DNA of 13,337 bases, taken from assembly GCA_017551425.1 (NCBI GenBank), contig JAFZLQ010000027.1:1-13337 (forward strand). The letters are read 5' to 3'. Below, piece by piece: positions 1 to 13,337 of this stretch. A program made the translations under genes and the position numbers. Each line of letters starts with the position of its first letter. The stretch's first letter is position 1. This DNA comes from Bacteroidales bacterium (GTDB taxonomy: Bacteria > Bacteroidota > Bacteroidia > Bacteroidales > UBA932). The notes beneath the pieces were generated by a model that was not told where the DNA came from, ran no database searches, and was given only the letters and a program-made list of their open reading frames with translations.

Positions 1-85
1 AAAACTTCCGCTTCGCTCCATCCCTCCCACTGCGCTGCGCTTGTGGGCCCCTCCCGTTCACATCGCCACGGGCGGCGATGGTTTC
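1..85. repeat. Structured intergenic repeat, copy 1 (left arm cut by window edge)
   Basis: This GC-rich stretch lies 24 bases past the stop of the minus-strand operon and aligns with 12541-12622. Shared blocks are TCCGCTTCGCTCC, CCCTCCCAC, GGGCCCCTCCCGTTCA and ACGGGC. Two hairpins are visible. Hairpin 1 pairs CCCAC (26-30) with GTGGG (43-47), with an inner GCG/CGC (32-34/38-40). Hairpin 2 pairs CATCGCC (61-67) with GGCGATG (74-80) around the loop ACGGGC (68-73). AAAC (2-5) can pair with GTTT (81-84) as the start of an outer stem, most of which would lie left of the window. No protein-coding signal was seen. Function is unknown; it could be a small mobile palindromic element or a structured 3'-UTR RNA. 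The repeat and the pairing are seen directly; the rest is inference. Confidence 0.75.
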
Positions 86-108
86 TGAGAGCAATACCCT
101 TTTCTGCA

Positions 109-3045
109 TCATTCTGCAATAGCCATAAAGGCTTTATTCGTTTTACCGTCTATACAAATACGCAAAGGTTTTTCAAGCCGGACGTGACGGAGGAACTCCG
201 TCTCCTCAACGGCCGGCAGCGCATCCAGGGCGGCGAAATCGAGATGCTCCCCGGCCCGCGCAAAACCGTTCACATTCACATACCCCACGTTGAAAGACGT
301 AAGGTTCTGGAAGAAATGCGTCCCCTGGCTCGGATCTATCTGGAAGTTCTCAAGAGAGTACTCCACTATGGCCTTGGCCTCGGAAATATCGCCCCAGACC
401 ACCGGCACCCCCAGGCTTGGCTGGCTGGTCCCCCAGCGCCCGAACCCAATCAGCACATACCCCGCACCTTCGGCCTTGAGGGAAGCGTTGACAGCTGAAA
501 CCTGCCCTGCGATCTCCCCGGTACGAAGCACGTTCCAGGCAGACTGCTTGAGGTACACCACATCCTTCACGCCCTCAATCCAGCCGGTGCCCAGGGCACA
601 GCCGGACTCAAGCATGGCGCCCGTAGTATCAACTTCGCTCCAGTTGACCTCCGACAGTCGGGAATCGGCGGAAATAGGCCGCACCTGCAGGACCGAGAAG
701 GTGGCACGGCCGTCGGGATCGAAGTCGGCGGCGAATTCCAGCTCCACCTCGCACTTCATCTCGTCGCGCGCTATTCCCATCAGCGTACGCACAATCTCCG
801 CCAGCGGGAAGGTGTTGTACTTGAGCATCGACGCAAAGGTGATGTATTTGGGGCCTTCGGGGATGGCGGAATCGACGATGCGCATATTGGCTATGTCCCA
901 GGTGGACGCAACGCGCCTGAGCGACGGAAAACCGGCGCAGTCGGCGATTCCTATGCGTTCCAGGTTGACTGAATCGTCAACGGAAGTCTTGAACTTCTCC
1001 GGACGCAGGTGCATGGCATACATCACCCTCTGTGTCTCACGCACGGTAAGTTCAGGAGTGGAAGTCTGAAGCGCGTGCCTGGGATAGCGGGGCGAGAAGC
1101 GGAGCACCTGCTCGCCATCGACAACCGCCTTGCCCAGACCGTAAGCGACCTTCACTATGCCGTCTTCAGGAGTCTCATGCCCCACAGGGTAGAAATTGAC
1201 GGAACGGGCGACGCCGGACAGCGTGGGGAAAAAGTAATCCCCCTGCTCGCTGCCGCATATCTCCTGGATTACCACGGCCATGCGCTCCTCGGAAATGACG
1301 TTCCCGGAAGCCACGATGTAACTCTTTGCGGAAGAATAATATACGCTTGCGTAAACGCTGGTGATCGCCTTGGAGAGCATACGCAGCTGCTGGTCTTCGT
1401 TGACGGCCGGAGGCAGCATGTAGGTGGAATAGACACCTGCAAAAGGCTGATGGTAGGAGTCTTCCAGCTTGGAAGACGAGCGCACCGCCAGCGGCTTCCT
1501 CACTACGCGGATGAAGGCGCGCAGCGAATCCAGCAGTTCCTTGGGAAGCGGCGACGCCACGAACTCGGAAAGGAGCTCGGCGTCCGAGACGTCGGAATTG
1601 ATGACGTATCCCAGACCGTTCTCGCGGATGAAACGCTCGAACCAGTCGGTGGTGATGACAAGGGTCCTGGGCACGCTCACGCGTACGTCCTCCCACTTGT
1701 CGAAGAGGGAATGCTTCTGGAGGGCGTGATTCAGGAAAGCCAGGCCGCGGGCCTTGCCGCCTATGGAGCCGCTGCCGAGGCGGGAGAACCAGATGGCGTC
1801 GTTGTACGTCTCCGGATTGAATGCGGCCACCACCCCGAGCGCCTGTGAGATGCGGAAGTCATGGATGGCGCGAAGCACCAGGCGGCGGTGCTCCTCGACG
1901 TCCGGATAATCCTCGGGACGAATTGGTTCAAGGAAACGGCCTATGCTGAACAAGCCCCTGGCATACAGCCACTTGGAGAGGTAGTTGTTCTCCGTGAGGC
2001 GGTTGAATGTATCCGGGCTGATGGTCCTGATGACCTCCTCGAACTCCAGCAGGTCGCTGGCGCGGAAGGTCTCCCTGTGCGTCCTCGGGTCTATGACCAC
2101 GAAGTCGCCGAATCCGAACTCCCTTTCCAGATAATCGCCGAGCTCCTGGGTGAGGGTCTTTGACTGCTTGAGCAGGAAGCCGACCTTGAGTTTGGCGGCG
2201 ACCTGCTTCATGCTGGCCTGGGAAGACTGCATCAGGAAGGGCATGCGGGGGTTGTCTGCACGGACCATGCGGCACAGCTGCACGCCGGCATCCAGATGCT
2301 CGGAAGACGGTTTGTCCCCCTTGTGCATCACGAAGCCCACGTCGGAAATGACGCCCAGCAGGTTGTCTTTATAGCGCTCGTAATAATCCACGGCGTCGGC
2401 ATAGTTGGTGGCCATGAGGATCTTGGGACGCGAACGCTTGCGCAGGATCTGCTGCTGCTCGTTGAGCGCGTCCTTGATGGCCTTGGTGTTCTGCTGGAGC
2501 ACCATGTTGTACAGCGCCGGGAGGTATGTAGAATAGTATTTTATGGAATCTTCGACAAGCAGGATGGCCTGCACGCCATATTCAAGTATGTCCGTGTCTG
2601 CGTTCAGACGGTCTTCGAGCAGCTTGATGATGGCGATGATGAGGTCCGTATTGTAATTCCAGCAGAACACGTAGTCTATGCTGGTGCACGCGGCCTCCTC
2701 TATCTGGCGGTAAACCTCCCTGGAGAAGGATGAAAGCAGGACGATGGGCATTCCCGAATCGAACTCCTTTGCCCTGGTGGCGAAATCGAACACGCTCACC
2801 TCTCCCACGTAGTACATGGTGATCACGAGGTCGAAGCGCTCCCCCGACTCGAGCATTCCAAGAGCTTCCGCCGTGCTGGCGGCGCGACGGATGCGGGGCG
2901 GGTTGCTGAGGTTGAGGTCGGCGTATTCGCGGGCTATCTGGGTATCGAGGCGTCCGTCCTCCTCGAGCGAGAAGGAATCGTAACTGTTGCATACCAGGAG
3001 GATACTGCGTATCCTTTTGGCCATCATCGTCTTGCTGTCTTCCAT
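109..3045 (-). CDS. Receiver-like / PEP-synthase ATP-grasp (PPDK_N) hybrid protein
   Basis: This 978-residue protein is the last gene of the tsaD-gdhA operon, with ATG 6 bases after the gdhA stop. Residues about 12-150 look like a degenerate receiver domain: SILLV and PIVLLSS strands are present, but the acidic pocket, phosphoacceptor Asp and Lys are not evident. Residues about 158-305 look like an intact receiver: E165-D166 in ILLVEDS, D235 in ISDVG, S274/S275, and K293. Residues about 420-792 match the pyruvate-phosphate dikinase/PEP synthase N-terminal ATP-grasp domain: GSIGGKARGL (426-435), AVRSSSKLEDS (520-530), FAGVYST (535-541), and the closing VLQVRP (785-790). The C-terminal ~180 residues contain GFGRWGTSQPSLGVP and QGTHFFQN, which I associate with Bacteroidota PEP-synthase-like proteins. 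I see no TCGGRTCHA-like phosphohistidine motif and no PEP-binding barrel, so complete PEP synthase activity is unlikely. Probably cytoplasmic; the phosphoryl acceptor is unknown. Such proteins are often labelled phosphoenolpyruvate synthase, which may mislead. Confidence 0.85.
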   Translation of the reverse strand: MEDSKTMMAKRIRSILLVCNSYDSFSLEEDGRLDTQIAREYADLNLSNPPRIRRAASTAEALGMLESGERFDLVITMYYVGEVSVFDFATRAKEFDSGMPIVLLSSFSREVYRQIEEAACTSIDYVFCWNYNTDLIIAIIKLLEDRLNADTDILEYGVQAILLVEDSIKYYSTYLPALYNMVLQQNTKAIKDALNEQQQILRKRSRPKILMATNYADAVDYYERYKDNLLGVISDVGFVMHKGDKPSSEHLDAGVQLCRMVRADNPRMPFLMQSSQASMKQVAAKLKVGFLLKQSKTLTQELGDYLEREFGFGDFVVIDPRTHRETFRASDLLEFEEVIRTISPDTFNRLTENNYLSKWLYARGLFSIGRFLEPIRPEDYPDVEEHRRLVLRAIHDFRISQALGVVAAFNPETYNDAIWFSRLGSGSIGGKARGLAFLNHALQKHSLFDKWEDVRVSVPRTLVITTDWFERFIRENGLGYVINSDVSDAELLSEFVASPLPKELLDSLRAFIRVVRKPLAVRSSSKLEDSYHQPFAGVYSTYMLPPAVNEDQQLRMLSKAITSVYASVYYSSAKSYIVASGNVISEERMAVVIQEICGSEQGDYFFPTLSGVARSVNFYPVGHETPEDGIVKVAYGLGKAVVDGEQVLRFSPRYPRHALQTSTPELTVRETQRVMYAMHLRPEKFKTSVDDSVNLERIGIADCAGFPSLRRVASTWDIANMRIVDSAIPEGPKYITFASMLKYNTFPLAEIVRTLMGIARDEMKCEVELEFAADFDPDGRATFSVLQVRPISADSRLSEVNWSEVDTTGAMLESGCALGTGWIEGVKDVVYLKQSAWNVLRTGEIAGQVSAVNASLKAEGAGYVLIGFGRWGTSQPSLGVPVVWGDISEAKAIVEYSLENFQIDPSQGTHFFQNLTSFNVGYVNVNGFARAGEHLDFAALDALPAVEETEFLRHVRLEKPLRICIDGKTNKAFMAIAE

Positions 3046-3051
3046 ACGGGC

Positions 3052-4407
3052 TTATACGAGTCCTTGGTCCATCATGGCGCCGGCGACCTTGAGGAAGGAA
3101 GCGACGTTTGCGCCCTTGACGTAGTTGATGTATCCATCTTCCTCCGTACCGTACTGCAGGCAGGCGGCGTGGATGTCGGACATGATGCGGCGCAGGTGCG
3201 AATCCACCTCTTCCGCAGTCCATTTCTGGCGGATGGAGTTCTGGGTCATTTCAAGGCCGGAAGTAGCCACTCCGCCGGCGTTGGACGCCTTTCCGGGCGA
3301 GTACAGGAGCTTTGCGCCCTGGATTATCTCTATGGCCTCCGGGGTTGTGGGCATGTTGGCGCCCTCGGTCACGCAGATGCAGCCGTTGTCCACCAGGGCG
3401 CGGGCTCCGGCGGCGTCGAGTTCGTTCTGGGTGGCACAGGGAAGGGCGATGTCGCACTTCACAGCCCAGGGCTTCTCTCCGGCCACGTATTTTGCCGACG
3501 GATACTGCGCTGCATACTCCTTGATGCGGCCGCGCAGGACATTCTTGAGCCTGAATACATAAGCCATCTTTTCCTCGTCGAGGCCGTCGGGGTCGTAGAT
3601 GTATCCGTCTGAATCGGAAAGGGTTACGACCTTCGCTCCCAGCCTCATGGCCTTCTGGGCCGCGTACTGGGCGACGTTGCCGGCGCCGGACACCACCACG
3701 GTCTTGCCCTCGAAACCCTCGCCGCGGGTGGCGAGCATCTGCTGGGCGAAATAGCATACGCCGTAACCGGTGGCCTCGGGACGCAGCAGGCTGCCGCCCC
3801 ATGCGAATCCCTTGCCCGTAAGGGTGCCGGTGAACTCGTCGCGAAGCCTCTTGTACTGGCCGAAGAGGAAGCCGATCTCACGTCCGCCCACGCCTATGTC
3901 GCCTGCGGGCACGTCGGTATCCTGGCCTATGTAGCGCTGGAGTTCGGTCATGAAACTCTGGCAGAAGCGCATCACCTCGGCGTCGGACTTGCCGCGGGGG
4001 TTGAAATCGCTGCCGCCCTTGGCGCCACCCATGGGAAGCGTGGTGAGGGCGTTCTTGAAGGTCTGCTCGAAGGCAAGGAACTTCATGATGCTGAGGTTGA
4101 CGCTGGGATGGAAGCGGATGCCGCCCTTGTAAGGGCCTATCGCGCTGTTCATCTGCACGCGGAAACCCCTGTTGATCTGGATGTTGCCGTCGTCGTCCGT
4201 CCAGGGGACGCGAAACATGATTACACGTTCCGGCTCGGTCATGCGTTCCATGATCCTGGCATCTATCAGATAGGGATATGCCTCGAGCGTGGGGGCCACG
4301 CTCCCGAGGACCTCGCTGACTGCCTGGTGGAACTCAGGCTCGCCCGGATTGCGGGCGATCAGGCCTGACATGAAGGAGGCGGTGTACTTTTCGGAAAAAC
4401 TACTCAT
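3052..4407 (-). CDS. gdhA: NADP-type glutamate dehydrogenase
   Basis: This 451-residue enzyme interconverts 2-oxoglutarate plus ammonia and glutamate in the cytoplasm. Its length and sequence fit the hexameric bacterial ~450-residue family. Visible motifs are GPYKGGIRFHPS (about 91-102), the active-site segment LPMGGAKGGSDFNP with its catalytic-type Lys at about 130, PAGDIGVGGREIG (about 167-179), and the Rossmann segment VSGAGNVAQYA (about 239-249), followed by SDSDG. NADP rather than NAD use is inferred from family similarity. I chose the ATG at 4407, which gives MSSFSEKY. An in-frame TTG two codons upstream (4413) is possible but unneeded. The gene starts 12 bases after the tsaD stop and ends 6 bases before the next gene, so the three are probably co-transcribed. 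Confidence 0.97.
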   Translation of the reverse strand: MSSFSEKYTASFMSGLIARNPGEPEFHQAVSEVLGSVAPTLEAYPYLIDARIMERMTEPERVIMFRVPWTDDDGNIQINRGFRVQMNSAIGPYKGGIRFHPSVNLSIMKFLAFEQTFKNALTTLPMGGAKGGSDFNPRGKSDAEVMRFCQSFMTELQRYIGQDTDVPAGDIGVGGREIGFLFGQYKRLRDEFTGTLTGKGFAWGGSLLRPEATGYGVCYFAQQMLATRGEGFEGKTVVVSGAGNVAQYAAQKAMRLGAKVVTLSDSDGYIYDPDGLDEEKMAYVFRLKNVLRGRIKEYAAQYPSAKYVAGEKPWAVKCDIALPCATQNELDAAGARALVDNGCICVTEGANMPTTPEAIEIIQGAKLLYSPGKASNAGGVATSGLEMTQNSIRQKWTAEEVDSHLRRIMSDIHAACLQYGTEEDGYINYVKGANVASFLKVAGAMMDQGLV

Positions 4408-4419
4408 AACCAACCGTTA

Positions 4420-5442
4420 TTAAAAATCCGCCATACGGGATACGGGCGCGACATCCAGCGGGGTGCTCTCCCCCGCCATGTAACGGAACCATCCCGCGAT
4501 GGCTATCATTGCTGCATTGTCCGTGGTGAACTTTACGGGCGGCAGGAAGGTGCGCCAGCCGCGTTTCCGGCCCTCGGCCTCCACGCGTGCCCGGAGGCAG
4601 CTGTTGGCGCTCACGCCGCCGCCTATGGTCACATCGCGTATGCCCGTCTGGCGCGCGGCCTTGACCAGTTTGTCCATAAGTATGTCCACCAGGGTATTCT
4701 GGAAGGAGGCGCAGATGTCCTCCTTGTTCTTTTCCATGAACTCCGGGTCCTTTGCCATCTCGTCCCTGACGAAATAAAGCAGGGACGTCTTGATGCCGCT
4801 GAACGAATAGTCCAGCCCCGGGATGTGAGGTTTTGCGAACTTGAAGCGCCTGGGGTCTCCCTGTTTTGCCAGACGGTCTATCACGGGACCTCCCGGGTAG
4901 CCCAGGCCCATCATCTTGGAACACTTGTCGAACGCCTCGCCCACCGCATCGTCTATGGTCTGGCCCAGGATGGTATATTCCAGGGGGCCGTCCACGCGCA
5001 CTATCTGGGAATTGCCGCCGCTCACCAGCAGGCACAGGTACGGGAATTCAGGCTGACGCACCTCAGCACCCGGTTCCTTGATGAAATCCGCCAGGATATG
5101 CCCCTGGAGGTGGTTGACCATGATGATGGGGATGTCCAGCGCAAGGCCGAGCGCCTTGGCGAACGAAGTGCCCACCAGCAGCGAGCCGAGCAGGCCGGGA
5201 CCGCGGGTGAATGCGATGGCGGTAAGGTCTCCGGGGGTGATGCCGGCACGGGACAGGGCCTCGCTCACCACCGGCACGATATTGAGCTCGTGGGCACGTG
5301 AGGCAAGCTCGGGAACCACGCCCCCGTAAGCCTTGTGGACGTCCTGGCTGGCAATGACATTGGAAAGCAGCCACCCGTCACGGATGACGGCGGCGGATGT
5401 GTCGTCGCACGAGGATTCTATGCCGAGAATGAAGTCTGCCAT
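4420..5442 (-). CDS. tsaD: tRNA N6-adenosine threonylcarbamoyltransferase TsaD
   Basis: This 340-residue protein transfers the threonylcarbamoyl group from threonylcarbamoyl-AMP to A37 of ANN-decoding tRNAs, making t6A, together with TsaB and TsaE, which are not in this window. It has the Kae1/TsaD ASKHA fold features: LGIESSCDDTSAAV at the N-terminus, the metal motif NHLQGH with H111 and H115, LVSGGNSQ (139-145), GYPGGPVIDRLA (181-192), the IGGGVSAN nucleotide-binding loop (273-280), and a C-terminal TTDNAAMIA containing metal-ligand D308. Length is normal for the family and the protein appears complete. It is the first gene of the minus-strand operon. ATG at 5442 is preceded by an AT-rich region with two candidate -7 boxes. 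It is transcribed divergently from tamB, an arrangement I recall from other Bacteroidota. Confidence 0.97.
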   Translation of the reverse strand: MADFILGIESSCDDTSAAVIRDGWLLSNVIASQDVHKAYGGVVPELASRAHELNIVPVVSEALSRAGITPGDLTAIAFTRGPGLLGSLLVGTSFAKALGLALDIPIIMVNHLQGHILADFIKEPGAEVRQPEFPYLCLLVSGGNSQIVRVDGPLEYTILGQTIDDAVGEAFDKCSKMMGLGYPGGPVIDRLAKQGDPRRFKFAKPHIPGLDYSFSGIKTSLLYFVRDEMAKDPEFMEKNKEDICASFQNTLVDILMDKLVKAARQTGIRDVTIGGGVSANSCLRARVEAEGRKRGWRTFLPPVKFTTDNAAMIAIAGWFRYMAGESTPLDVAPVSRMADF

Positions 5443-5464
5443 CCAAATACCCTTTTCGCAACCG

Positions 5465-5481
5465 CAAATTTAGCAAAAATA
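5465..5481 (-). promoter_or_regulatory. Candidate -7 boxes for the tsaD operon
   Basis: Read on the minus strand, TAAATTTG (5472 to 5465) and TATTTTTG (5481 to 5474) both match the Bacteroidota -7 consensus TAnnTTTG. From the nearer box, transcription would start about 15 bases before the tsaD ATG. No convincing -33 TTG or TTTG element was found at the usual distance. The match is seen in the sequence; promoter activity is inferred, and AT-rich DNA raises the chance of coincidence. Confidence 0.5.
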
Positions 5482-5485
5482 TTAT

Positions 5486-5493
5486 TAAATTTG
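5486..5493 (+). promoter_or_regulatory. Candidate -7 box for the tamB operon
   Basis: TAAATTTG matches the Bacteroidota -7 consensus TAnnTTTG and is the last AT-rich sequence before tamB. Transcription would begin near 5500. That fits a very short leader followed by translation of the signal-anchor reading frame somewhere between about 5506 and 5550, not at the GTG at 5606. No clear -33 element was found. The box lies 13 bases from the oppositely oriented tsaD box, so the two promoters may compete. Confidence 0.45.
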
Positions 5494-5605
5494 TAGGTTA
5501 AACGCATTATCACTCATCGGCAAGGCAAGATACATAGCGGCCCGCGTCATAGGGTTCCTGATAGTACTGCTGCTCTGCGGGCTCTTCGTCCTGCAGCTTC
5601 CGGCC
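5489..5605 (+). other. Open 5' extension of tamB coding for a signal anchor, without a canonical start codon
   Basis: The tamB frame is open from just after a TAA at 5486 through to 5605. It reads LIGKARYIAAR, then the hydrophobic stretch VIGFLIVLLLCGLFVLQLP, then AVQ, which is the usual layout of a TamB N-terminus: basic residues, one membrane anchor, and a xPxVQ motif. No ATG, GTG or TTG occurs in frame in this stretch, and no ATG occurs in any frame between 5443 and 5605. In-frame alternatives are ATC at 5516, ATA at 5534 (with AAGG 8 bases upstream) and ATA at 5549. Non-AUG initiation, a point mutation, or an assembly error that removed an ATG are all possible. Confidence 0.7.
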
Positions 5606-8600
5606 GTGCAGACCGGCCTTGCCAGATATGCCACAGGCAAGCTCCAGGGAATGATAGACGGACGCGTGGAGATAGGCGCCATACGCCTTCATCCTTTCAA
5701 CGCAGTCACCCTCAAGGACGTCTGCATTATTGACGAGAATCCTTTCCCGGACAACACCGGACGCGGCCTCGGCCCAGTGGATACGCTTGCCAGCATAGGA
5801 CGCCTGTCCGTCACGCTGTCTCCCAAGTCGCTGATCCGGTTCAAGAAAGGCGGCATACACCTGGGCCGCGTGGATGTCAGGGACGTGCTCTTCCAGCTGG
5901 CCCTGGAGCCGGGCGAAGACTATACCACCAACATCACCAGGATCTTCCGCATTGGCGGAGGCAAAGACAAGGAGATGTCGCTGGACACCCTGTTCTCCAT
6001 ACACAGGCTCAACGTGAAGGACGCCCGCTACCGGATGGTGAGCCTGAATCCGGAAGTCACCCCGAGGGACTGCGGCATCGACTTCATGGACCTGGACGTC
6101 CGCTTTGACGTAAAAGCCCACGACATCAGCTTCCGCGGCGGACGGATGTGCGCAATGGTGGACAAACTGGACATACGGGAGAAGTGCGGTTACGAGATGT
6201 ACGACATCTCCGGCAACTGCAAGGTGGGCATGGGGCACACCAACATACGGAACTTCCACCTGCGGGACAACAACGGCAGCGACATCAACTTGCCCAGGGT
6301 CGATTTCAACTACGAGGGCAATCCCAGCGCCTGGGGCAACTTCGTGCAGGAAGTGGAACTGGACATCAGCTTTGCCAGGAGCCACCTCGTCTTCGGCTCC
6401 GTCAGCGCATACAGCGGCCATCTGTTCCATGACTGCCCCCTGCAGGCGGAAATAACCGGAGGCCGTTTCAAGGGCCCCGTGAGCAACTTCAAGGTAAGCG
6501 GATTCTCTTTCGTCGGCACCGATGCCGATGTGGCCGGCACGATTGACTGCTCCATCAGCGGCATCCCCAATTCCAGGCAGATGTTCCTTCAGGGCGAGCT
6601 CCGGGACGTAACCTTCACCTCCGACGGCCTCACCAGGGTGCTCTCCGACCTCGGCACTGACGCATACCTCTCAAAGCTCGCCAAAGGCACTCAGTTCACC
6701 GCCAACGGCAGCTTCTCCGGTTTCCTCAGGGAGCTCAAGGGCGCCCTTCGCCTGACCTCCGGCATAGGCAGCGCCAGGGTGGATGCCCTGATACGCGGCA
6801 TCACGGAAGACGGCAAGCCCCTGACCTTCAGGGCCGATATCGCCGGACACGAGCTGGACCTCGGCAAACTCACGGGGGCCGAATCGCTCGGGCGGAGCAC
6901 ATTTACGGCCAAGGCCGTCGGTACGCTGGGAAGCACACCTGCCATAAACCTCGAAAGACTAGACATCTCCAGCCTCAACGCCCTGGGCTACGAGTATTCG
7001 GACATCTCGCTCAACGCCATCATGCTCGGCACCGCGCTCCAGGCGAAGCTCTCTTCTTCCGACCCCAACGCATTCGCAGACGTCTCTGCGGACATAGACT
7101 GGAAGAACAAGACCGGCCGCATCAAGGCGGAGATAACGGACATAGACCTCGCCACCCTCAACATAGACACCCGCGGCGGCAGGTCGGCCGTATCCTGCGC
7201 CCTCATGGCGGAACAGGGACTTGATCCCTCCGAGCCTGCGCAGATAGTCATTTCCGACCTCACCCTCACCCGCGACGACGGCGTCTATCTGATCGGGGAC
7301 ATCCTGTCCCAGGCGCGCATCAACGACGGAATCCTCACCATAATCCTCAATTCCGACGTATTCGACGCCAAGTACCACGGCACATCCAACATCAGCGGCC
7401 TGATTTCAGACGTGAAGGACGTCACCGTCAACCGCCACCTGCCGGCTGTGTTCGCCCCTCATGCGGAGCCTTCGGACACCCTCTCCACTCTCAGCTGCTC
7501 GCTCAGCGCCGTCCTCCATCAGACAAAGGGCCTGCTGTCATTCATCCTGCCCGGTCTCAGCATAGAAAACGACACGGCGTTCAACATCGACCTCGACGAA
7601 TCCGGCAGGCTGATGGGCTACATCAGCTCCCCCGGCCTGACCTACAACAACATAAGCGCCAAGGGCTTCGACTTTTCCGTCAGCAACTACGACGGCGACC
7701 TCGGCTGCACCCTCTCGGCGGACCGTCTGGGCATTGGCAACCTTCCGTTCAACAAGGCCGCCTTCCTGGCGAACGCCACGTCGGACATTCTGATGATGTC
7801 CCTCAACTACGAGAACGCCGAGGTGCTGGACGGAGGCAGCGAACTCTATCTCAGCGCCGCATTCTCCCGGGACACCCGCGACTCCCTGGTGGTGGACGTA
7901 AACACCCTCCCTTCCCAGATCAGCATAAAGGGCGATACCTGGGAACTGAGCGAGTCGCTCATACAGCTCTCCCACGGCAAAATGGAAGCGGACGGATTCG
8001 AACTCTCCTGCGGCGACCAGAGCATTTCCATCGACGGCGGCATGCAGAGGCATGTGTCCGACACCCTCTCGGTGCACTTCCGGGAGCTCGACCTGAGCCT
8101 CGTGAGCGAATTCCTCGGAAGCAAGATTCCTGATATAGAAGGCCTCATCGACGGCGACGTCACCCTGCTGTCCCCCTTCCCGTCCAAGATGGGCCTGTTC
8201 GCAGGCCTGGTGCTGGAGGGCCTTAAGCTGAACGGCATAAACGCCGGCGACTTCCTCATAGACAGCGACTGGGACGACAAGGCGCGCACCATATCCTTCG
8301 ACATACTCAACAACCTGGAAGACAGGCAGGCCCTGCAGCTTACGGGAAAATACGGCACCAAGAACAGTACGCTAGACGCCACGGCTACGCTCGACAGCCT
8401 TGACGCACGCATCGCCCAGCCATTCCTGAAGAACGTACTGAGCCAGGTCGGAGGCCGGCTCAGCGGCAGCGTGGGCGTATCCGGCAAGCTGGACAAACTC
8501 AAGTTGTCCAGCGAAGGCATCCGGCTTGACGGAGTATGCGGACGCGTTAAGCACACCAACGTCTTCTACTCCCTCAACGGCACCACCAGCATAGTTGACA

Positions 8601-10039
8601 ACAAGCTTATATTCAACAATATAGGCGTTATCGACGAATACGGCGGCATGGGTGTCCTGCAGGGCGGGGTCTCGCTCGGGGACTTCAAGGCTCCCAGGAT
8701 TGACGCATCCCTTGAGATGAACCGGCTCAAGGCCATAGACATCCCCGGGCCCGAAAGCCACATCCGCGTTTACGGAGACCTTTCAGTTTCCGGCAACGGC
8801 CGCATACGGGGTCCTTTCAACGCCCTCGGCATAGACGCGGAGGTCTCCAGCGCCGGCAGCGGCCTCGTGAACGTTCCGGTATCGGCGGCGTCTGCCGCGT
8901 CCGAAAGCGACCTGCTGACTTTCACCAGGCCGGAGAGCGAAGAGACGGATGACGTAGCCGAGGTGAAGGAGAGCAAGCAGCGTTCCGGCTCAGGCGTGGT
9001 GGTGCATGCCAGGGTGAAGGTGATGCCGGATGTCATCGCCAACGTGGAAATCGACAAGGAATCGGGCCACGTGCTCACCGCCGGAGGAACGGGAGACGTA
9101 ATCCTCGACCTCAACACAGCCAAGGGCAACCTGCAGCTGAAGGGAGACTACCTGATAGACAAGGGAAAGTACCTCTTCAACATCCCCGGCATCGTGAGCA
9201 AGGAATTCGACATAAACGAGGGCAGCTCCATCAAGTTCAACGGCAACATCCTGGAGAGCACGCTGAACATCAAGGCAGCGCACAACGTCAAGACCTCTCT
9301 CAACACGCTCGTGGCAGACTCCACGTCGGTATCGACCCGGCGTACGGTCGTCTGCGGACTCGACATAAGCGGCAAGCTGCGCAGCCCCGAGGTTTCCTTC
9401 TCCATCGACGTACCCGACCTCGATCCGAGCACCAAGATGGCGGTTGACGCAGCCCTCAACACCACAGACAAGGTTCAGAAGCAGTTCGTGGCCCTGCTGC
9501 TCTTCGGCACCTTCATACCCCAGGACAATTCCGGAGTCGTAAACGGCACCAACATGATTTACTCCAACGTGGGCGAAATAGTGGCGGGACAGCTGAACAA
9601 CATACTGCAGAAGCTGGACATCCCGGTTGATATCGGCCTGGGCTACCAGCAGGACAATTACGGCACCGACATGTTCGACGTGGCGGTGTCCACGCAGCTT
9701 TTCAACAACAGGCTTGTGGTCGGCGGCTCGCTGGGCAACCGCAAATACAGCACTTCCAAGAGCGACAACGGAGAGCTGGTGGGAGACCTCGACATAGAAC
9801 TCAAGCTGGACAACAGCGGCGAGGTGCGCCTCAAGCTGTTCAGCCATTCAGCCGACGAGTACACCAGCAGCCTCGACTTCTCGCAGCGCAACGGCATAGG
9901 CGTCTCGTACCAGAAGGAATTCAACAAGATGCGCGATTTCTTCCGGCAGCTGTTCATGTCGCGTAAGCGCAAGACCGAGGAAGCCCTCATCGAGGCGAGC
10001 AGGAAAAAGGAAACAACGGTAATCGAGATAGAAGAATGA
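5606..10039 (+). CDS. tamB: TamB/AsmA-family envelope assembly protein (translocation and assembly module)
   Basis: Coordinates start at the first canonical codon (GTG), giving 1477 residues. The real protein almost certainly begins 60-90 bases earlier, because the signal anchor is coded upstream. TamB proteins are long, inner-membrane-anchored periplasmic beta-taco or beta-helix proteins linked to outer-membrane protein assembly or lipid transport. Most of this protein is repetitive beta-strand-rich sequence with alternating hydrophobic residues. A hydrophilic acidic linker follows at about 1092-1132. The conserved C-terminal TamB (DUF490) domain runs from about 1135 to 1435 and includes FNIPGIVSKEFDINEGSS (near 1190), LDPSTKMAVDAALN, VALLLFGTF (near 1295) and DIGLGYQQDN. 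A charged tail containing MSRKRKTEEALIEASRKK ends the protein. The stop overlaps the folB start (ATGA). It is the first gene of the plus-strand operon; no TamA partner is visible here. Confidence 0.93.
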   Translation: MQTGLARYATGKLQGMIDGRVEIGAIRLHPFNAVTLKDVCIIDENPFPDNTGRGLGPVDTLASIGRLSVTLSPKSLIRFKKGGIHLGRVDVRDVLFQLALEPGEDYTTNITRIFRIGGGKDKEMSLDTLFSIHRLNVKDARYRMVSLNPEVTPRDCGIDFMDLDVRFDVKAHDISFRGGRMCAMVDKLDIREKCGYEMYDISGNCKVGMGHTNIRNFHLRDNNGSDINLPRVDFNYEGNPSAWGNFVQEVELDISFARSHLVFGSVSAYSGHLFHDCPLQAEITGGRFKGPVSNFKVSGFSFVGTDADVAGTIDCSISGIPNSRQMFLQGELRDVTFTSDGLTRVLSDLGTDAYLSKLAKGTQFTANGSFSGFLRELKGALRLTSGIGSARVDALIRGITEDGKPLTFRADIAGHELDLGKLTGAESLGRSTFTAKAVGTLGSTPAINLERLDISSLNALGYEYSDISLNAIMLGTALQAKLSSSDPNAFADVSADIDWKNKTGRIKAEITDIDLATLNIDTRGGRSAVSCALMAEQGLDPSEPAQIVISDLTLTRDDGVYLIGDILSQARINDGILTIILNSDVFDAKYHGTSNISGLISDVKDVTVNRHLPAVFAPHAEPSDTLSTLSCSLSAVLHQTKGLLSFILPGLSIENDTAFNIDLDESGRLMGYISSPGLTYNNISAKGFDFSVSNYDGDLGCTLSADRLGIGNLPFNKAAFLANATSDILMMSLNYENAEVLDGGSELYLSAAFSRDTRDSLVVDVNTLPSQISIKGDTWELSESLIQLSHGKMEADGFELSCGDQSISIDGGMQRHVSDTLSVHFRELDLSLVSEFLGSKIPDIEGLIDGDVTLLSPFPSKMGLFAGLVLEGLKLNGINAGDFLIDSDWDDKARTISFDILNNLEDRQALQLTGKYGTKNSTLDATATLDSLDARIAQPFLKNVLSQVGGRLSGSVGVSGKLDKLKLSSEGIRLDGVCGRVKHTNVFYSLNGTTSIVDNKLIFNNIGVIDEYGGMGVLQGGVSLGDFKAPRIDASLEMNRLKAIDIPGPESHIRVYGDLSVSGNGRIRGPFNALGIDAEVSSAGSGLVNVPVSAASAASESDLLTFTRPESEETDDVAEVKESKQRSGSGVVVHARVKVMPDVIANVEIDKESGHVLTAGGTGDVILDLNTAKGNLQLKGDYLIDKGKYLFNIPGIVSKEFDINEGSSIKFNGNILESTLNIKAAHNVKTSLNTLVADSTSVSTRRTVVCGLDISGKLRSPEVSFSIDVPDLDPSTKMAVDAALNTTDKVQKQFVALLLFGTFIPQDNSGVVNGTNMIYSNVGEIVAGQLNNILQKLDIPVDIGLGYQQDNYGTDMFDVAVSTQLFNNRLVVGGSLGNRKYSTSKSDNGELVGDLDIELKLDNSGEVRLKLFSHSADEYTSSLDFSQRNGIGVSYQKEFNKMRDFFRQLFMSRKRKTEEALIEASRKKETTVIEIEE

Positions 10040-10389
10040 AAGGACGTATCGAATTGACAGGCATGCACTTCCGGGCCTTCCACGGCTGTCTGGAAAGCGA
10101 ACGTACGGAAGGGGGCGACTTTAAGGTCGACTTCTCCTGCGAGGCCGACACATCCAGGGCGGAGCGCAGCGACGACCTTGCCGACACGCTTGACTACTCC
10201 GCCGTTTATGCCGTGGTGGCCGCCCAGATGCAGGTTCCCTCGCAGCTGCTCGAGGCCGTGGCGGGGCGCATCGCCGACGCCATCGGTGAGGAGTTCCCAT
10301 CGATAGGTCATTTTGAAGTGAGCGTTTACAAGAAGAATCCTCCGGTGGGGGGAGAATGCGAATGGGCAAAGGTAACGGTAAGACGATAG
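10036..10389 (+). CDS. folB: Dihydroneopterin aldolase FolB
   Basis: This 117-residue cytoplasmic enzyme of folate synthesis cleaves 7,8-dihydroneopterin to 6-hydroxymethyl-7,8-dihydropterin and glycolaldehyde. The normal family length and the key residues are present: the FRAFHGCLESER segment with E22, LDYSAVY with Y54, and VYKKNPPVGG with K100, which align with the pterin-binding Glu, Tyr and catalytic Lys known for the family. The ATG overlaps the tamB stop by 4 bases (ATGA), so translation is probably coupled to the much longer upstream gene. The 3' end overlaps the start of mtaB. No other folate gene is in the window. Confidence 0.95.
   Translation: MKGRIELTGMHFRAFHGCLESERTEGGDFKVDFSCEADTSRAERSDDLADTLDYSAVYAVVAAQMQVPSQLLEAVAGRIADAIGEEFPSIGHFEVSVYKKNPPVGGECEWAKVTVRR
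10351..10354 (+). promoter_or_regulatory. Shine-Dalgarno-like GGAG favouring the second ATG of mtaB
   Basis: GGAG at the end of a G-run lies 7 bases before the ATG at 10362 but only 1 base before the ATG at 10356, so it favours the later start. The G-run also encodes the conserved VGG of FolB, so it may be there only for protein reasons. Bacteroidota rely weakly on such sites, so the evidence is modest. Confidence 0.4.
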
Positions 10390-11663
10390 CGTTCCTCACC
10401 CTCGGCTGCAAGCTTAATTACGCCGAGACGAGTACGTACGAACGCGGCTTTGTCGCCGCCGGGTTCGGGGTCGTGCCATGGTCCCAGAAGGCGGACGTTT
10501 ATCTGGTCAACACCTGCTCCGTTACCGCCACAGCCGATTCAAAGTCCCGCAACCTTGTGCGTAAAGTGCTGAGGGTCAACCCTTCGGCCATAGTGGTAGT
10601 TACCGGCTGCAGCGCCCAGCTGCGCCGCCCGGATTACGAATCCATTCCCGGAGTAGCCCGCGTTTTTGGTTGCAACGAGAAGTCTTCAGTGGTTCCAGAG
10701 ACCTTGGCAATTCTGGAGGGACGGAGCCAGCAGTATCCGGTTGAAAATCGTCGCTGCGCGACCCATCTGCCTGGCTCAGCCAACAACGTATATCCTGCAT
10801 GGAGCAGTGGAGAACGCACACGCTCGTTCCTGAAGGTACAGGACGGGTGCAACAACTATTGTGCGTATTGTACGGTTCCGTACGCAAGGGGCGAAAGCCG
10901 CAACATTCCCGTTGCCGAGTGCGTTGCCAACGCAAAGGCAGCGGCTGCGCTGGGCGTGAAGGAGATAGTGCTTACGGGCGTGAATACGGGCGACTTCGGA
11001 CGCAGCACGGGAGAGTCGTTCCTGCAGCTGCTGCAGGCGCTGAATGAGGTTGACGGTATTGAGCGCTACAGGATCTCCAGCATCGAACCGAATCTCCTTA
11101 CGGATGATATCGTCGATTGGATCGCATCGGGCACCAAGTTCCAGCCCCATTTCCACATCCCCCTGCAGACCGGCACCGACGAGCAGCTTGCGGCCATGGG
11201 ACGGAAGTACACGACTTCGTTCTTCGCATCCAAGATAGATTACGTACGGGCGGCCCTGGAAGCCCCTGGCAAGCCGCTGGTGTTCTTCGGCATAGACGTC
11301 ATGGTGGGATTGCCGGGAGAGACGCCGGAGCAGTTCCGGAGGACTTACAGCTTCCTGGAGGAGCGCGTGCGTCCCGCCTTCATCCACGTATTCCCCTATT
11401 CCCGCCGTCCCGGGACTCCTGCAGCATCGATGCCGGGGCAGGTACCGGAGGCCGTGAAGAAAGAGCGTGTGGCGGAGCTTGAGGCTTTGTGCGCCCGGCT
11501 GCACTCGGAGTTCGTGGAGGCCAACCGCGGCATACGGGAGAAGGTGCTTTTCGAATCCACCGACCGCGACGGCTGGATGGAAGGCTATACAGGAAACTAT
11601 ATCCGCATCAGAAGGCCCTGGCAGGCCGGTCTGTGCGGTCAGATCATAGACGTTACGATATGA
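10362..11663 (+). CDS. mtaB: tRNA t6A37 methylthiotransferase MtaB
   Basis: This 433-residue radical-SAM enzyme converts t6A to ms2t6A at tRNA position 37, the step after the TsaD reaction. The N-terminal UPF0004 domain carries LTLGCKLNYAET and three cluster cysteines (C16, C52 in VNTCSVT, C83 in VTGCSAQ). The radical-SAM motif is CNNYCAYC with C163, C167 and C170, for the 4Fe-4S cluster that cleaves SAM. SSIEPNLL, HIPLQTG and DVMVGLPGET follow, and a C-terminal TRAM-like RNA-binding region starts near 388. CKLN and TVPYARGESRN fit MtaB better than MiaB or RimO. The start is nested in folB. ATG at 10356, six bases earlier, is an alternative. The stop overlaps the next start (ATGA). Confidence 0.95.
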   Translation: MGKGNGKTIAFLTLGCKLNYAETSTYERGFVAAGFGVVPWSQKADVYLVNTCSVTATADSKSRNLVRKVLRVNPSAIVVVTGCSAQLRRPDYESIPGVARVFGCNEKSSVVPETLAILEGRSQQYPVENRRCATHLPGSANNVYPAWSSGERTRSFLKVQDGCNNYCAYCTVPYARGESRNIPVAECVANAKAAAALGVKEIVLTGVNTGDFGRSTGESFLQLLQALNEVDGIERYRISSIEPNLLTDDIVDWIASGTKFQPHFHIPLQTGTDEQLAAMGRKYTTSFFASKIDYVRAALEAPGKPLVFFGIDVMVGLPGETPEQFRRTYSFLEERVRPAFIHVFPYSRRPGTPAASMPGQVPEAVKKERVAELEALCARLHSEFVEANRGIREKVLFESTDRDGWMEGYTGNYIRIRRPWQAGLCGQIIDVTI

Positions 11664-12517
11664 AAGCCAAACTTACGATACTGGGTTCGGGCACGTCTTC
11701 CGGCATACCGATGATAGGATGCAACTGCCCCGTCTGCAAGTCTTCGGATCCCCGTGACACCAGGCTTCGCGCCTCCGCCCTGGTTGAATACGGCGGGCTC
11801 ACCATTCTGGTGGACTGCGGGCCGGATTTCCGCTATCAGGCCATTCGCGCCGGAATCTCCCACCTGGACGCCATCCTGCTGACCCACAATCACATGGACC
11901 ACATAGGCGGGCTTGACGACACCCGCGCCCTCAACCTTTGCGAGAGCCGCCCGGTGAATATCTACTGCGAGCGCTATGTGGAGGATTCGCTGCGCCACAT
12001 GTACGCTTACGCCTTTGCCGATCCTAAGTATCCCGGCGCGCCGGAATGGCACATGCATACAATTGACGGCAGCGCGCCGTTCAAGGTGTTTTCAAACGCC
12101 GGAGACGAGGTGCTTCAGTGGGAAAAGGGTTTCGGCTACAGGCACCTGGGGGCGTCCGGGGCCGAGGGGAAGAGCGTGGAGGTTATCCCCATCCAGGGTT
12201 GGCACCACAAGGTCAAGAAGCAGTCGGTGCTCGGATACCGCTTCGGAGACATCGCATATCTCACCGACATGAACCTTATCGAGGAGCCCGAATTCGAGAA
12301 GCTGAAGGGTTTGAAGGCCGTGACGCTCAACTGCGTGAAACCCGGCCCTCACCATTCCCATTTCTCGCTGGACGAGTGCCTCGAGTTCTTCGCCCGCGTC
12401 GGCGCACAAGAGTCGTACATCACGCATCTCTCGCACCTGCTGCCCCCTCACGAAGAGTTTGAGAAACAGCTTCCCCCGCACATTCATCCTGCCTACGACG
12501 GTTTGGTAATAGAATAG
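11660..12517 (+). CDS. MBL-fold metallohydrolase, PhnP-like
   Basis: This 285-residue metallo-beta-lactamase-fold protein is the last gene of the tamB operon. ATG at 11660 overlaps the mtaB stop (ATGA) and gives the canonical MKAKLTILGSGTSSGIP start. The dinuclear metal motif is THNHMDH with H76, H78, D80 and H81. Other likely ligands are H182/H183, D203 in YLTDMN, and the histidines of THLSH (256, 259). CNCPVC at 21-26 gives three cysteines like the structural zinc site known in PhnP cyclic-phosphate phosphodiesterases. The fold and the zinc cysteines suggest a phosphodiesterase-type hydrolase, but the substrate is unknown and no phosphonate genes are nearby, so I give no symbol. Its place beside mtaB could reflect RNA or nucleotide metabolism, which is inference. 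Confidence 0.9.
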   Translation: MKAKLTILGSGTSSGIPMIGCNCPVCKSSDPRDTRLRASALVEYGGLTILVDCGPDFRYQAIRAGISHLDAILLTHNHMDHIGGLDDTRALNLCESRPVNIYCERYVEDSLRHMYAYAFADPKYPGAPEWHMHTIDGSAPFKVFSNAGDEVLQWEKGFGYRHLGASGAEGKSVEVIPIQGWHHKVKKQSVLGYRFGDIAYLTDMNLIEEPEFEKLKGLKAVTLNCVKPGPHHSHFSLDECLEFFARVGAQESYITHLSHLLPPHEEFEKQLPPHIHPAYDGLVIE

Positions 12518-12524
12518 TCGCTGC

Positions 12525-12638
12525 ACAGACTGCGGCTGCCAAAACCCTCCGCTTCGCTCCGCCCCTCCCACGCCTTCGGCGCGGGCCCCTCCCGTTCATG
12601 GTCACGGGCGACCAAAGGTTTTGGCAGCCGCAGTCTGT
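12525..12638. repeat. Structured intergenic repeat, copy 2, enclosed by a 22-bp inverted repeat
   Basis: The core at 12541-12622 aligns with positions 1-85. Hairpin 1 pairs 12567-12573 with 12579-12585 (CCCACGC with GCGCGGG, one A-C mismatch) around CTTCG. Hairpin 2 pairs TGGTC (12599-12603) with GACCA (12610-12614) around ACGGGC, the same loop as in copy 1 although the stem sequence differs. The core is bracketed by perfect inverted arms at 12525-12546 and 12617-12638, 22 bp long, which end inside at AAAACC and GGTTTT. The element lies between the convergent MBL gene and pckA, starting 7 bases after the MBL stop. On the plus strand it would be the 3' untranslated region of the tamB operon. 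There is no U-tract after the right arm, so a standard intrinsic terminator is unlikely. Function unknown. Confidence 0.8.
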
Positions 12639-12657
12639 TCCGCCCCTCCAAACAAAA

Positions 12658-12686
12658 CGGGGCGCGATTGAACCAATCGCGCCCCG
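12658..12686 (-). terminator. Intrinsic terminator of pckA
   Basis: CGGGGCGCGATTG (12658-12670) and CAATCGCGCCCCG (12674-12686) form a perfect 13-bp stem with a 3-base loop. Read on the minus strand it is followed by a T-rich tract (GTTTTGTTT), 21 bases after the pckA stop. On the plus strand the stem is followed by mixed AT sequence, so termination in that direction would be weaker. Confidence 0.9.
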
Positions 12687-12707
12687 AAATCAATTATTCA
12701 AGAGTCT

Positions 12708-13337
12708 TTAGAGCTGGGGACCGGCGGCTACGAGAGCCTTGCCAGCTTCGTTGCCTTCGTACTTCTTGAAGTTCTTCACGAAGCGGCCGGCGAGGTCGCG
12801 GGCTTTCTCATCCCACTCTGCGCGGTTCTGATAAGTGTCGCGAGGATCGAGGATGCCCCATGCAACGCCGTCGAGCTGAGTCGGAACTTCGAAGTTGAAG
12901 TAAGGGATCTTCTTGGTAGGAGCGTTCAGGATGGCGCCGCCCAGGATCGCGTCGATGATGCCGCGGGTGTCGCGGATAGAGATACGCTTGCCAGTACCGT
13001 TCCAGCCTGTATTCACGAGATATGCCTTGGCGCCGCTCTTTTCCATTCTCTTCACAAGTTCCTCAGCATATTTGGTAGGATGCAACTCGAGGAATGCCTG
13101 GCCGAAGCAAGCAGAGAAGGTCGGAGTGGGCTCGGTGATGCCGCGCTCGGTACCGGCCAGCTTGGCGGTAAAGCCGCTCAGGAAATAGTACTTGGTCTGC
13201 TCGGGGGTGAGGATGCTTACCGGAGGAAGCACGCCGAAAGCGTCCGCGCTGAGGAAGATTACCTGCTTTGCGGCAGGGCCCTCGGAGCGGGGACGTACAA
13301 TCTTCTCGATATGATAGATAGGATAGCTCACGCGGGT
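12708..13337 (-). CDS. pckA: Phosphoenolpyruvate carboxykinase (ATP), C-terminal 209 residues, partial at window edge
   Basis: This is the 3' part of the ATP-type PEP carboxykinase gene. The enzyme interconverts oxaloacetate plus ATP with PEP, CO2 and ADP; in many anaerobic Bacteroidota it is thought to run toward carboxylation. The frame is open to the edge and begins [10 protein letters not shown], a conserved substrate-binding segment. It continues with [51 protein letters not shown] (the nucleotide-contacting region of the family) and ILDPRDTY, and ends ALVAAGPQL as in E. coli PckA. The GTG at 13331 is an internal Val codon and not a start. About 330 N-terminal residues, including the P-loop, lie outside. 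An intrinsic terminator follows. Confidence 0.97.

Follow-up and report, generated by a model that had tools for sequence, protein, structure and literature searches.

Palindromic repeats with an RNA-like, pseudoknotted core are nearly universal in one genus of Bacteroidales and are probably non-autonomous mobile elements

Two intergenic stretches toward the two ends of a piece of contig from a Bacteroidales bacterium resemble each other, and the question is what kind of element they represent. The DNA analyzed spans positions 1–13,337 of the contig (hereafter, the window). According to the original prediction, made from the letters alone, positions 1–85 and 12541–12622 are copies of an ~85-nt repeat that should be abundant genome-wide and could be either a MITE or REP-like element mobilized in trans or a structured RNA module. 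The likeness itself was reproduced: the two stretches are 87% identical over positions 1–30 versus 12542–12571, and the blocks named in the prediction occur in both, in the same order. Furthermore, the exact 22-letter pattern TCCGCTTCGCTCCNNCCCTCCCAC was found in 118 stretches of species-genome contigs, 117 of them from Bacteroidales, and the resemblance within the window is therefore not due to chance.

The stretch first noticed is the inner part of a larger hairpin, and the predicted length of ~85 nt is too short. The copy near the window's right end (copy B) spans ~12520–12643, in which 27-nt inverted arms, 93% complementary, flank a 70-nt core, and the match of the copy at the left edge (copy A) covers 1–101. 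We call the strand as read in the window the reader strand, and its reverse complement the structured strand. On the reader strand, positions 12515–12650 have a folding energy of –66.6 kcal/mol (z = –6.6 versus 200 shuffles). A covariance model (R1), for which copy B and 60 copies from elsewhere were used, gave 98.4 bits for copy B (12530–12637, minus strand) and 96.7 bits for copy A (1–101, minus strand). The features of the two copies and the neighboring frames are as follows.

12520..12546, minus strand: copy B, 3΄ arm of the structured strand; 27-nt inverted repeat, 93% complementary to 12617–12643
12547..12561, minus strand: copy B, mini-hairpin GGAGCGAAGCGGA with closing pair 12547/12561, which covaries
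12567..12585, minus strand: copy B, second hairpin, CCCGC...GTGGG on the structured strand with a variable loop; 100% of helix cells paired
12591..12614, minus strand: copy B, pseudoknot; CCCGT (12591–12595) with ACGGG (12604–12608), and TGGTC (12599–12603) with GACCA (12610–12614)
12617..12643, minus strand: copy B, other arm, 5΄ arm of the structured strand; inverted repeat, covariance-model match 12530–12637
1..101, minus strand: copy A, covariance-model match with its 3΄ end cut off; one arm lost at the window edge
53..80, minus strand: copy A, pseudoknot read from the sequence; CCCGT (53–57) with ACGGG (68–72), and CATCGCC (61–67) with GGCGATG (74–80)
109..3045, minus strand: neighboring frame of 978 aa from the ORF list, stop facing copy A; presumably PEP-utilizing enzyme-like
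11489..12517, plus strand: open frame from the ORF list ending just before copy B; we take it to be metallo-hydrolase-like
12708..13337, minus strand: convergent frame from the ORF list ending beyond copy B; assumed to be pckA-like

The second pseudoknot stem differs between copies A and B on both sides. Both copies had been placed just after a stop codon, and this holds for copy B, which follows the stop at 12517 of a plus-strand frame; copy A lies 3΄ of the minus-strand frame ending at 109, and its opposite side is beyond the window. Elements were also found near the orthologue of the pckA-like frame in two other loci (L018 and L063). Between copy B and the pckA-like stop, positions 12658–12686 were seen by eye to form a strong hairpin, CGGGGCGCGATTGAACCAATCGCGCCCCG, accompanied on the minus strand by a T-rich run; it is probably the terminator of the pckA-like gene.

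The predicted high copy number was borne out, since a wider genome search yielded abundant further copies, including the 118 loci of the exact pattern, and the covariance model detected between 2 and 57 copies in every one of 20 carrier genomes. Elements are mostly ~105–160 nt long and reach ~220 nt. The 117 Bacteroidales records are titled Bacteroidales, Bacteroidia, Rikenellaceae, Alistipes or Candidatus Cryptobacteroides, and many are MAGs from rumen and horse feces. With R1, matches were obtained in at least 176 of 200 genomes of the genus of G003 (E up to 1e-4), to which G011 with its Ca. Cryptobacteroides choladohippi record also belongs, and in at least 5 of 295 genomes sampled across the order, G003 among them; both surveys used stricter filters and scored 18 and 12 candidates per genome, respectively, which makes the counts minimum values. 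Carriage is nearly universal within that genus and rare among the genomes sampled outside it, and the family is large, genus-specific and real. The core findings of the original prediction stood, and what it had overlooked was this genus restriction, the inverted arms, the structured strand and the insertions in frame within proteins.

Candidates from outside the order were rejected. In the single non-Bacteroidales locus (L103, Rhizobiales), arm complementarity was below the control level and the score was 30 bits; this locus was counted in the arm-swap test, the same-site comparison and the count of gene overlap and orientation, and was excluded from the long-arm hairpin survey, the strict in-frame test, the related-arm pairs, the gap placement and the Y1-proximity count. 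For a viral origin, the conserved 16-mer gave two IMG/VR matches, neither accompanied by the remainder of the element, and two patterns of the element had no match there. As to plasmid relatives, matches in Azospirillum span only part of the core, and the one examined had E = 0.3 with the model; these GC-rich repeats (L292:990-1062, on an Azospirillum plasmid) resemble only the CCCTCCC hairpin part and are probably convergent. Two contigs of one genome share a 1.9-kb stretch that is 99.95% identical (L026:2929-4827 and L120:1-1899), with an element at its edge. As far as the accessible text goes, we found no such repeat in the open-access literature on repeats in Cryptobacteroides, Bacteroidales or Bacteroidetes; the family is apparently undescribed, provisionally so because most subscription journals lie outside that literature.

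Read along the structured strand, the element starts with one arm and a 7-bp stem, for instance CGTGGCC...GGCCACG; the loop of this stem, G-CCCGT, pairs with an ACGGG further downstream, giving an H-type pseudoknot. AGGGG comes next, then a hairpin CCCRC...GTGGG of very variable loop length, AGGG, the mini-hairpin GGA-GC-GAA-GC-GGA and the other arm. We compared pairing over 61 distinct copies, in a MAFFT alignment and with a structure chosen by inspecting these same sequences, and found that 91.3% of 2180 cells were paired, compared with 75.1% (sd 0.6) in shuffled controls and 40–49% in controls in which the partners were slid by 1–3 columns. Cells with two-sided changes numbered 417, versus 142.6 in shuffles, and such changes affected 23 pairs, versus 19.4 (5 of 500 shuffles reached 23), so that covariation exceeds both the shuffled and the slid controls. 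In helices 2 and 3, which form the pseudoknot region, 95.4% and 99.7% of cells were paired, with two-sided changes in 5 and 2 pairs, respectively. The two covarying pairs, out of five, in the 99.7% paired pseudoknot helix showed GC 39, AU 13, UA 7 and CG 2 in one case and UA 48 and CG 13 in the other. The second hairpin was paired in 100% of cells, with one pair varying (GU 38, AU 23) and four invariant, and the mini-hairpin was closed by U-A or C-G (UA 44, CG 16, other 1), its two inner pairs being invariant. Given the short crossing loops that follow from the stem order, the pseudoknot may be strained or alternating.

The core is RNA-like with a covarying pseudoknot, and of the two predicted possibilities, a MITE or REP-like element and a structured RNA module, the element combines both, being a dispersed palindrome with such a core. 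It is similar to the structured RNAs of Rfam in its covarying multi-stem structure with a pseudoknot and differs from them in that an Rfam search of the window (E up to 1) matched no family to copy A or copy B, just as the original prediction had assigned it to no named RNA family. The same search gave a sub-threshold match to the nadA riboswitch inside a coding frame at 10896–10951 (23.3 bits against a gathering threshold of 37.5), which is probably due to chance.

Mismatches in the arms indicate which strand folds. Among isolated arm mismatches between Watson–Crick pairs, A.C/C.A outnumbered G.T/T.G on the reader strand (28 versus 8; 65 copies, MAFFT). Because A.C on the reader strand corresponds to G.U on the opposite strand, the folding strand is the reverse complement of the reader strand and is G-rich. 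Consistently, a model alignment of the structured strand contained 29 G.U against 4 A.C (P = 1e-5; 92 non-redundant of 111 copies, in an alignment that leans to the model). A single G-rich strand is what folds, and RNA and single-stranded DNA are equally compatible with the G.U asymmetry.

We then mapped copies relative to gene ends, as the prediction had proposed, and found them enriched just past stop codons and rare in divergent gaps. Intergenic copies with a called gene on each side numbered 63; in 25 of these the core was within 60 nt past a co-directional stop, compared with an average of 13.7 and a maximum of 25 in 2000 runs in which position and orientation were randomized within the same gaps. 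Convergent gaps were occupied in 27 of 41 cases, divergent gaps in 4 of 39 and tandem gaps in 31 of 64, counting gaps of at least 140 nt delimited by our own simple gene caller in element loci, which had been chosen for holding an element. An apparent orientation bias relative to the gene at the reader-strand 5΄ side (82 of 109) was gone once gap type was controlled.

Such placement could suggest that the element serves its host at the 3΄ ends of genes, as a bidirectional terminator or an mRNA 3΄-end stabilizer that is kept because it works. The enrichment close behind stops, the frequency in convergent gaps, the very stable hairpin and the occupation of the same sites in different species would all agree with such a role, and the last of these also fits a function in place. 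However, with gap type controlled there was no orientation bias relative to the neighboring gene (46 versus 43.6 expected), no U-tract was seen by eye in the copies read, and a terminator would cut the protein short in the case of the copies, no fewer than 10 of 120, that sit within open reading frames. We therefore regard a 3΄-end function as unlikely to account for the family. Given how common the copies are, some of them may be long inherited.

Copies also occur inside protein genes. Gene calls were overlapped by 26 of 121 copies. The 10 of 120 intragenic copies noted above passed a strict test that demanded an open frame for 120 nt beyond both ends and coding-like codons on both flanks, and in which copies near contig ends were counted as failures; the demand for an open frame means that passing is by itself no evidence of selection for openness. 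Of these 10 copies, 9 are read on the reader strand. The host genes encode UDP-glucose 6-dehydrogenase (UGDH), a YgiQ radical SAM protein, MazG and TilS (by NCBIfam and Pfam), as well as RlmI-like and SpoU methyltransferases (by Pfam; below NCBIfam cut-offs).

The UGDH gene allows occupied and empty forms to be compared. The segment SRIIVG..EGA measures 207, 225, 210 and 300 nt in L013, L044, L032 and L064, respectively, and 84 nt in the empty form, found in 8 of 30 relatives fetched, with 81 and 90 nt in two more; among the other relatives, 9 were unread by the pattern, 7 were unmeasured, one (L132) repeats L064 and 3 contained other inserts. Relative to the 84-nt form, the inserts amount to +123, +141, +126 and +216 nt, all multiples of three and stop-free, and these sizes imply that both arms were carried, i.e. 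that the whole hairpin was inserted. A further UGDH copy is present in L121. The same loop holds other in-frame repeats in L122, L124, L147, L134, L138 and L123, including a TGTCATTCTGAGCGAAGCGAAGAATC-type sequence translated as CHSERSEES, and is thus an insertion-tolerant hot spot. A structure predicted for UGDH with its insert (23 sequences) was poor (pTM 0.54; mean pLDDT 67, ~27–29 in the insert) and was given no weight. The presence of copies in conserved enzymes such as TilS, UGDH and MazG might alternatively mean that an intervening RNA is spliced out or bypassed by ribosomes. However, removal would not require the four measured UGDH inserts to be stop-free multiples of three, and we consider splicing or bypass very unlikely; the strict in-frame test, with an open frame built into it, contributes little on this point.

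The arms are paired without having a fixed sequence. In 97 of 109 copies, arm complementarity exceeded the 95% level obtained when arms were swapped between copies, as would be expected of the terminal inverted repeats of a MITE. Nevertheless, near-identical cores within one genome mostly carry different arms. At 20–24 nt from the core, complementarity within a copy was 0.59–0.72 (76 copies), whereas identity between copies was 0.29–0.34 (96 same-genome pairs of 48 copies with similar cores); arm positions 1–18 are biased by the fit in this comparison. In the draft genome G018, 12 queried arms had no good match elsewhere, as the 24 good matches were both arms of those 12 copies and the rest had E above 1.8, in a search that gave one match per place and so hid matches between copies. 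Copies of this genome that have the same core mostly have arms that look unrelated, which suggested that all arm sequence is newly made at each insertion, but this strong form was dropped because many copies in G506/G507 have an inner ~20 nt in common (GGAGGTGGTACCTGGAAAACC and variants) while the outer part differs. Likewise, the arms of L191 and L199, which lie on one contig, agree over the inner 20 nt and diverge further out.

Where arms are related, they change in a paired manner. Among 30 pairs of copies with related arms, which are not independent and whose arms were selected for complementarity, there were 55 compensated double changes, 10 other double changes, 32 pair-breaking single changes and 18 changes at unpaired positions; single changes to G.U numbered 33 on the structured strand versus 15 on the other. 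The orthologues L177 and L178 differ by two compensated arm pairs, with zero uncompensated changes in the ~30 bp adjoining the core. Moreover, the core is inverted between orthologues: positions 1490–1627 of L195 align to 1618–1482 of L184 (91%), and positions 6988–7114 of L010 align to 4400–4274 of L048 (93%), with the flanks on the same strand in both cases and a second repeat also involved in the latter. According to the available portions of two sources, homogenization of arms and inversion of the spacer are the two hallmarks left when replication switches template between inverted repeats (PMC8604942), and such switching can create and maintain stems (PMC8794818). From the arm compensation together with the core inversion, we infer template switching, alongside or instead of selection.

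Could the arms instead be palindromes that already existed at the target? The empty UGDH sites, compared by eye, and the core-less orthologues L232 and L239 do not contain the arm sequences, and this idea is not supported; L239 has a short terminator-like hairpin nearby. A survey of 1.20 Mb of DNA yielded 97 unique long-arm hairpins, of which 62 held the element core by pattern, 11 had terminator-like loops of 0–10 nt and 2 were runs of N. For the outer arms only, insertion of the element into the loop of a terminator-like hairpin retains a residual plausibility.

Mobility is suggested by the dispersal of the family and by the occupied versus empty sites. The presence/absence orthologue pairs are diverged, and no recent insertion with exact ends was caught among them; no target-site duplication was visible at the sites compared, whose flanks are diverged. 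At the site in L233 that corresponds to L197, an arm-like stretch without a core was seen by eye, which fits deletion as well as insertion. We saw neither a conserved family-wide end nor an autonomous transposon partner, with a split-core search pattern so strict that it missed 26 known cores.

Among candidate mobilizers, the Y1 domain (PF01797) is the leading suspect. A specific form of the mobile-element reading holds that the element is a single-stranded DNA repeat of the REP/BIME kind, whose mobilizer would be a RAYT-like host transposase (Y1 HUH). Of 10 carrier genomes, 8 had Y1 domains (7 of them above the cut-off), mostly in frames of ~290–350 aa, as did 16 of 18 element-rich genomes versus 7 of 20 element-negative genomes, i.e. 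those with no match in the genus survey with R1; this correlation ignores phylogeny. We fetched 20 loci for 25 Y1 matches; only one of the 20 holds an element copy, as does one further Y1 locus, and most Y1 genes thus have no copy nearby. In both copy-holding loci, a Y1 transposase-like gene lies beside mazG with an in-frame copy, in opposite orientations (L315:794-2831 in G003 and L153:295-2328 in G016). Conversely, a Y1-like frame occurs in 4 of 117 element loci; in two of these (L116, ~130 nt; L023) it lies no more than ~0.6 kb from the element, which may reflect chance. Two element-rich genomes, G031 and G019, gave no Pfam Y1 match, which counts weakly against the RAYT-like form because Pfam misses some Y1 genes: G011 had no match, yet its locus L023 has a Y1-like frame. 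An association of GTGCTC repeats with Y1 genes was unsupported (0.54 versus 0.61 per kb). In the accessible parts of the literature, strand-specific recognition of hairpins is habitual for this enzyme class (PMC6006769), but the GTAG/CGTC REPs described have short stems (6–13 bp and 8–9 bp) and a terminal tag (PMC3733652). We therefore hold a RAYT-like mobilizer to be possible but rather doubtful.

The RNA-like pseudoknot and the G.U bias on one strand could also point to a retro-element, a structured RNA copied back into DNA by a reverse transcriptase in the manner of a bacterial SINE. However, the same strand bias could arise with single-stranded DNA, and just 4 of the 10 carrier genomes had a reverse transcriptase domain (PF00078), none of the four loci concerned containing an element; we regard such an origin as very unlikely.

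Other hairpins and repeats occur in the same bacteria. A second hairpin family has unrelated long perfect arms and a conserved 24–25-nt apex, TTTCGGCGTNAAGCCTGCTNTTGTT or its complement (L238:542-625, L203 near 1742 and, in reverse, L234), and replaces the element at a site orthologous to L179. A third type has an apical region of 159–173 nt and site-specific arms (L237:216-444 and L209 near 1363); in G019 it occupies a site orthologous to L182. A fourth apex, TCCGCGAAAAAGATAGCCGATGCTMC, was found twice, on two different arm pairs (L126:669 and 4021). In addition, a repeat of roughly TTTGAYGGGGGYTCYRCCCCCRTNACGCCCCCGGC adjoins the element in L009, L010 and L048, with an in-frame translation, by eye, of FDGGSxPxTPPGxL. 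We tentatively consider, as a rather improbable proposal, that these bacteria harbor a new kind of mobile-hairpin system, in which unrelated apical modules (the pseudoknotted core and at least three others) would sit on long arms conserved in pairing only and enter the genome as folded single strands through a single trans-acting machine yet to be discovered, the outer arms being site-specific.

The element was compared with known systems. The closest in behavior, which was compared rather than sequence, are the Rickettsia palindromic elements (RPEs), described in the available portion of PMC10969869 as ~150-bp palindromic repeats of several families, many of which lie in frame in unrelated protein genes. 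The present element shares with them its palindromes in frame in unrelated genes, as in the four UGDH inserts, and differs in belonging to another phylum and in its covarying pseudoknot core and sequence-diverse arms. With MITEs and ERIC-type elements it shares a short, non-coding sequence, terminal inverted repeats, many copies and positions near gene ends; in contrast to them, it has no family-wide terminal inverted repeat, its arms being common only within some subfamilies, and, given the diverged flanks and the strict search pattern, no parent transposon or target duplication like those of MITEs was found. GTAG/CGTC REPs with their RAYTs are likewise high-copy extragenic palindromes with G.T pairs in their stems, and Y1 genes exist in many carrier genomes here; however, the present arms are 20–50 bp long around a ~70-nt core, most Y1 genes have no adjoining copy, and a short hairpin with a GTAG or CGTC tag was not encountered in the element alignments.

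Taken together, we interpret the repeats, with a probability of roughly 0.7, as mobile palindromic elements that are non-autonomous, have an RNA-like core and form one family across the genus. In the proposed mechanism, a folded, G-rich single strand, either RNA or single-stranded DNA, would be recognized and inserted by an enzyme acting in trans. Copies may then persist where they are least harmful, i.e. past stop codons, at a distance from promoters or, in frame, within loops that tolerate an insert, and replication template switching between the arms after insertion could help to keep their complementarity and flip the core. If this is true, another lineage, far from Rickettsia, builds palindromic mobile DNA into proteins, in this case with a core that is pseudoknotted and RNA-like and with numerous structural variants in nature. 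The family would offer material on how non-autonomous palindromes move without an obvious transposase, and on how long stems stay paired amid sequence turnover, whether by selection or by template switching. It would also call for caution, in that inserted repeats run through the gene calls and RNA searches made in these gut and rumen bacteria.
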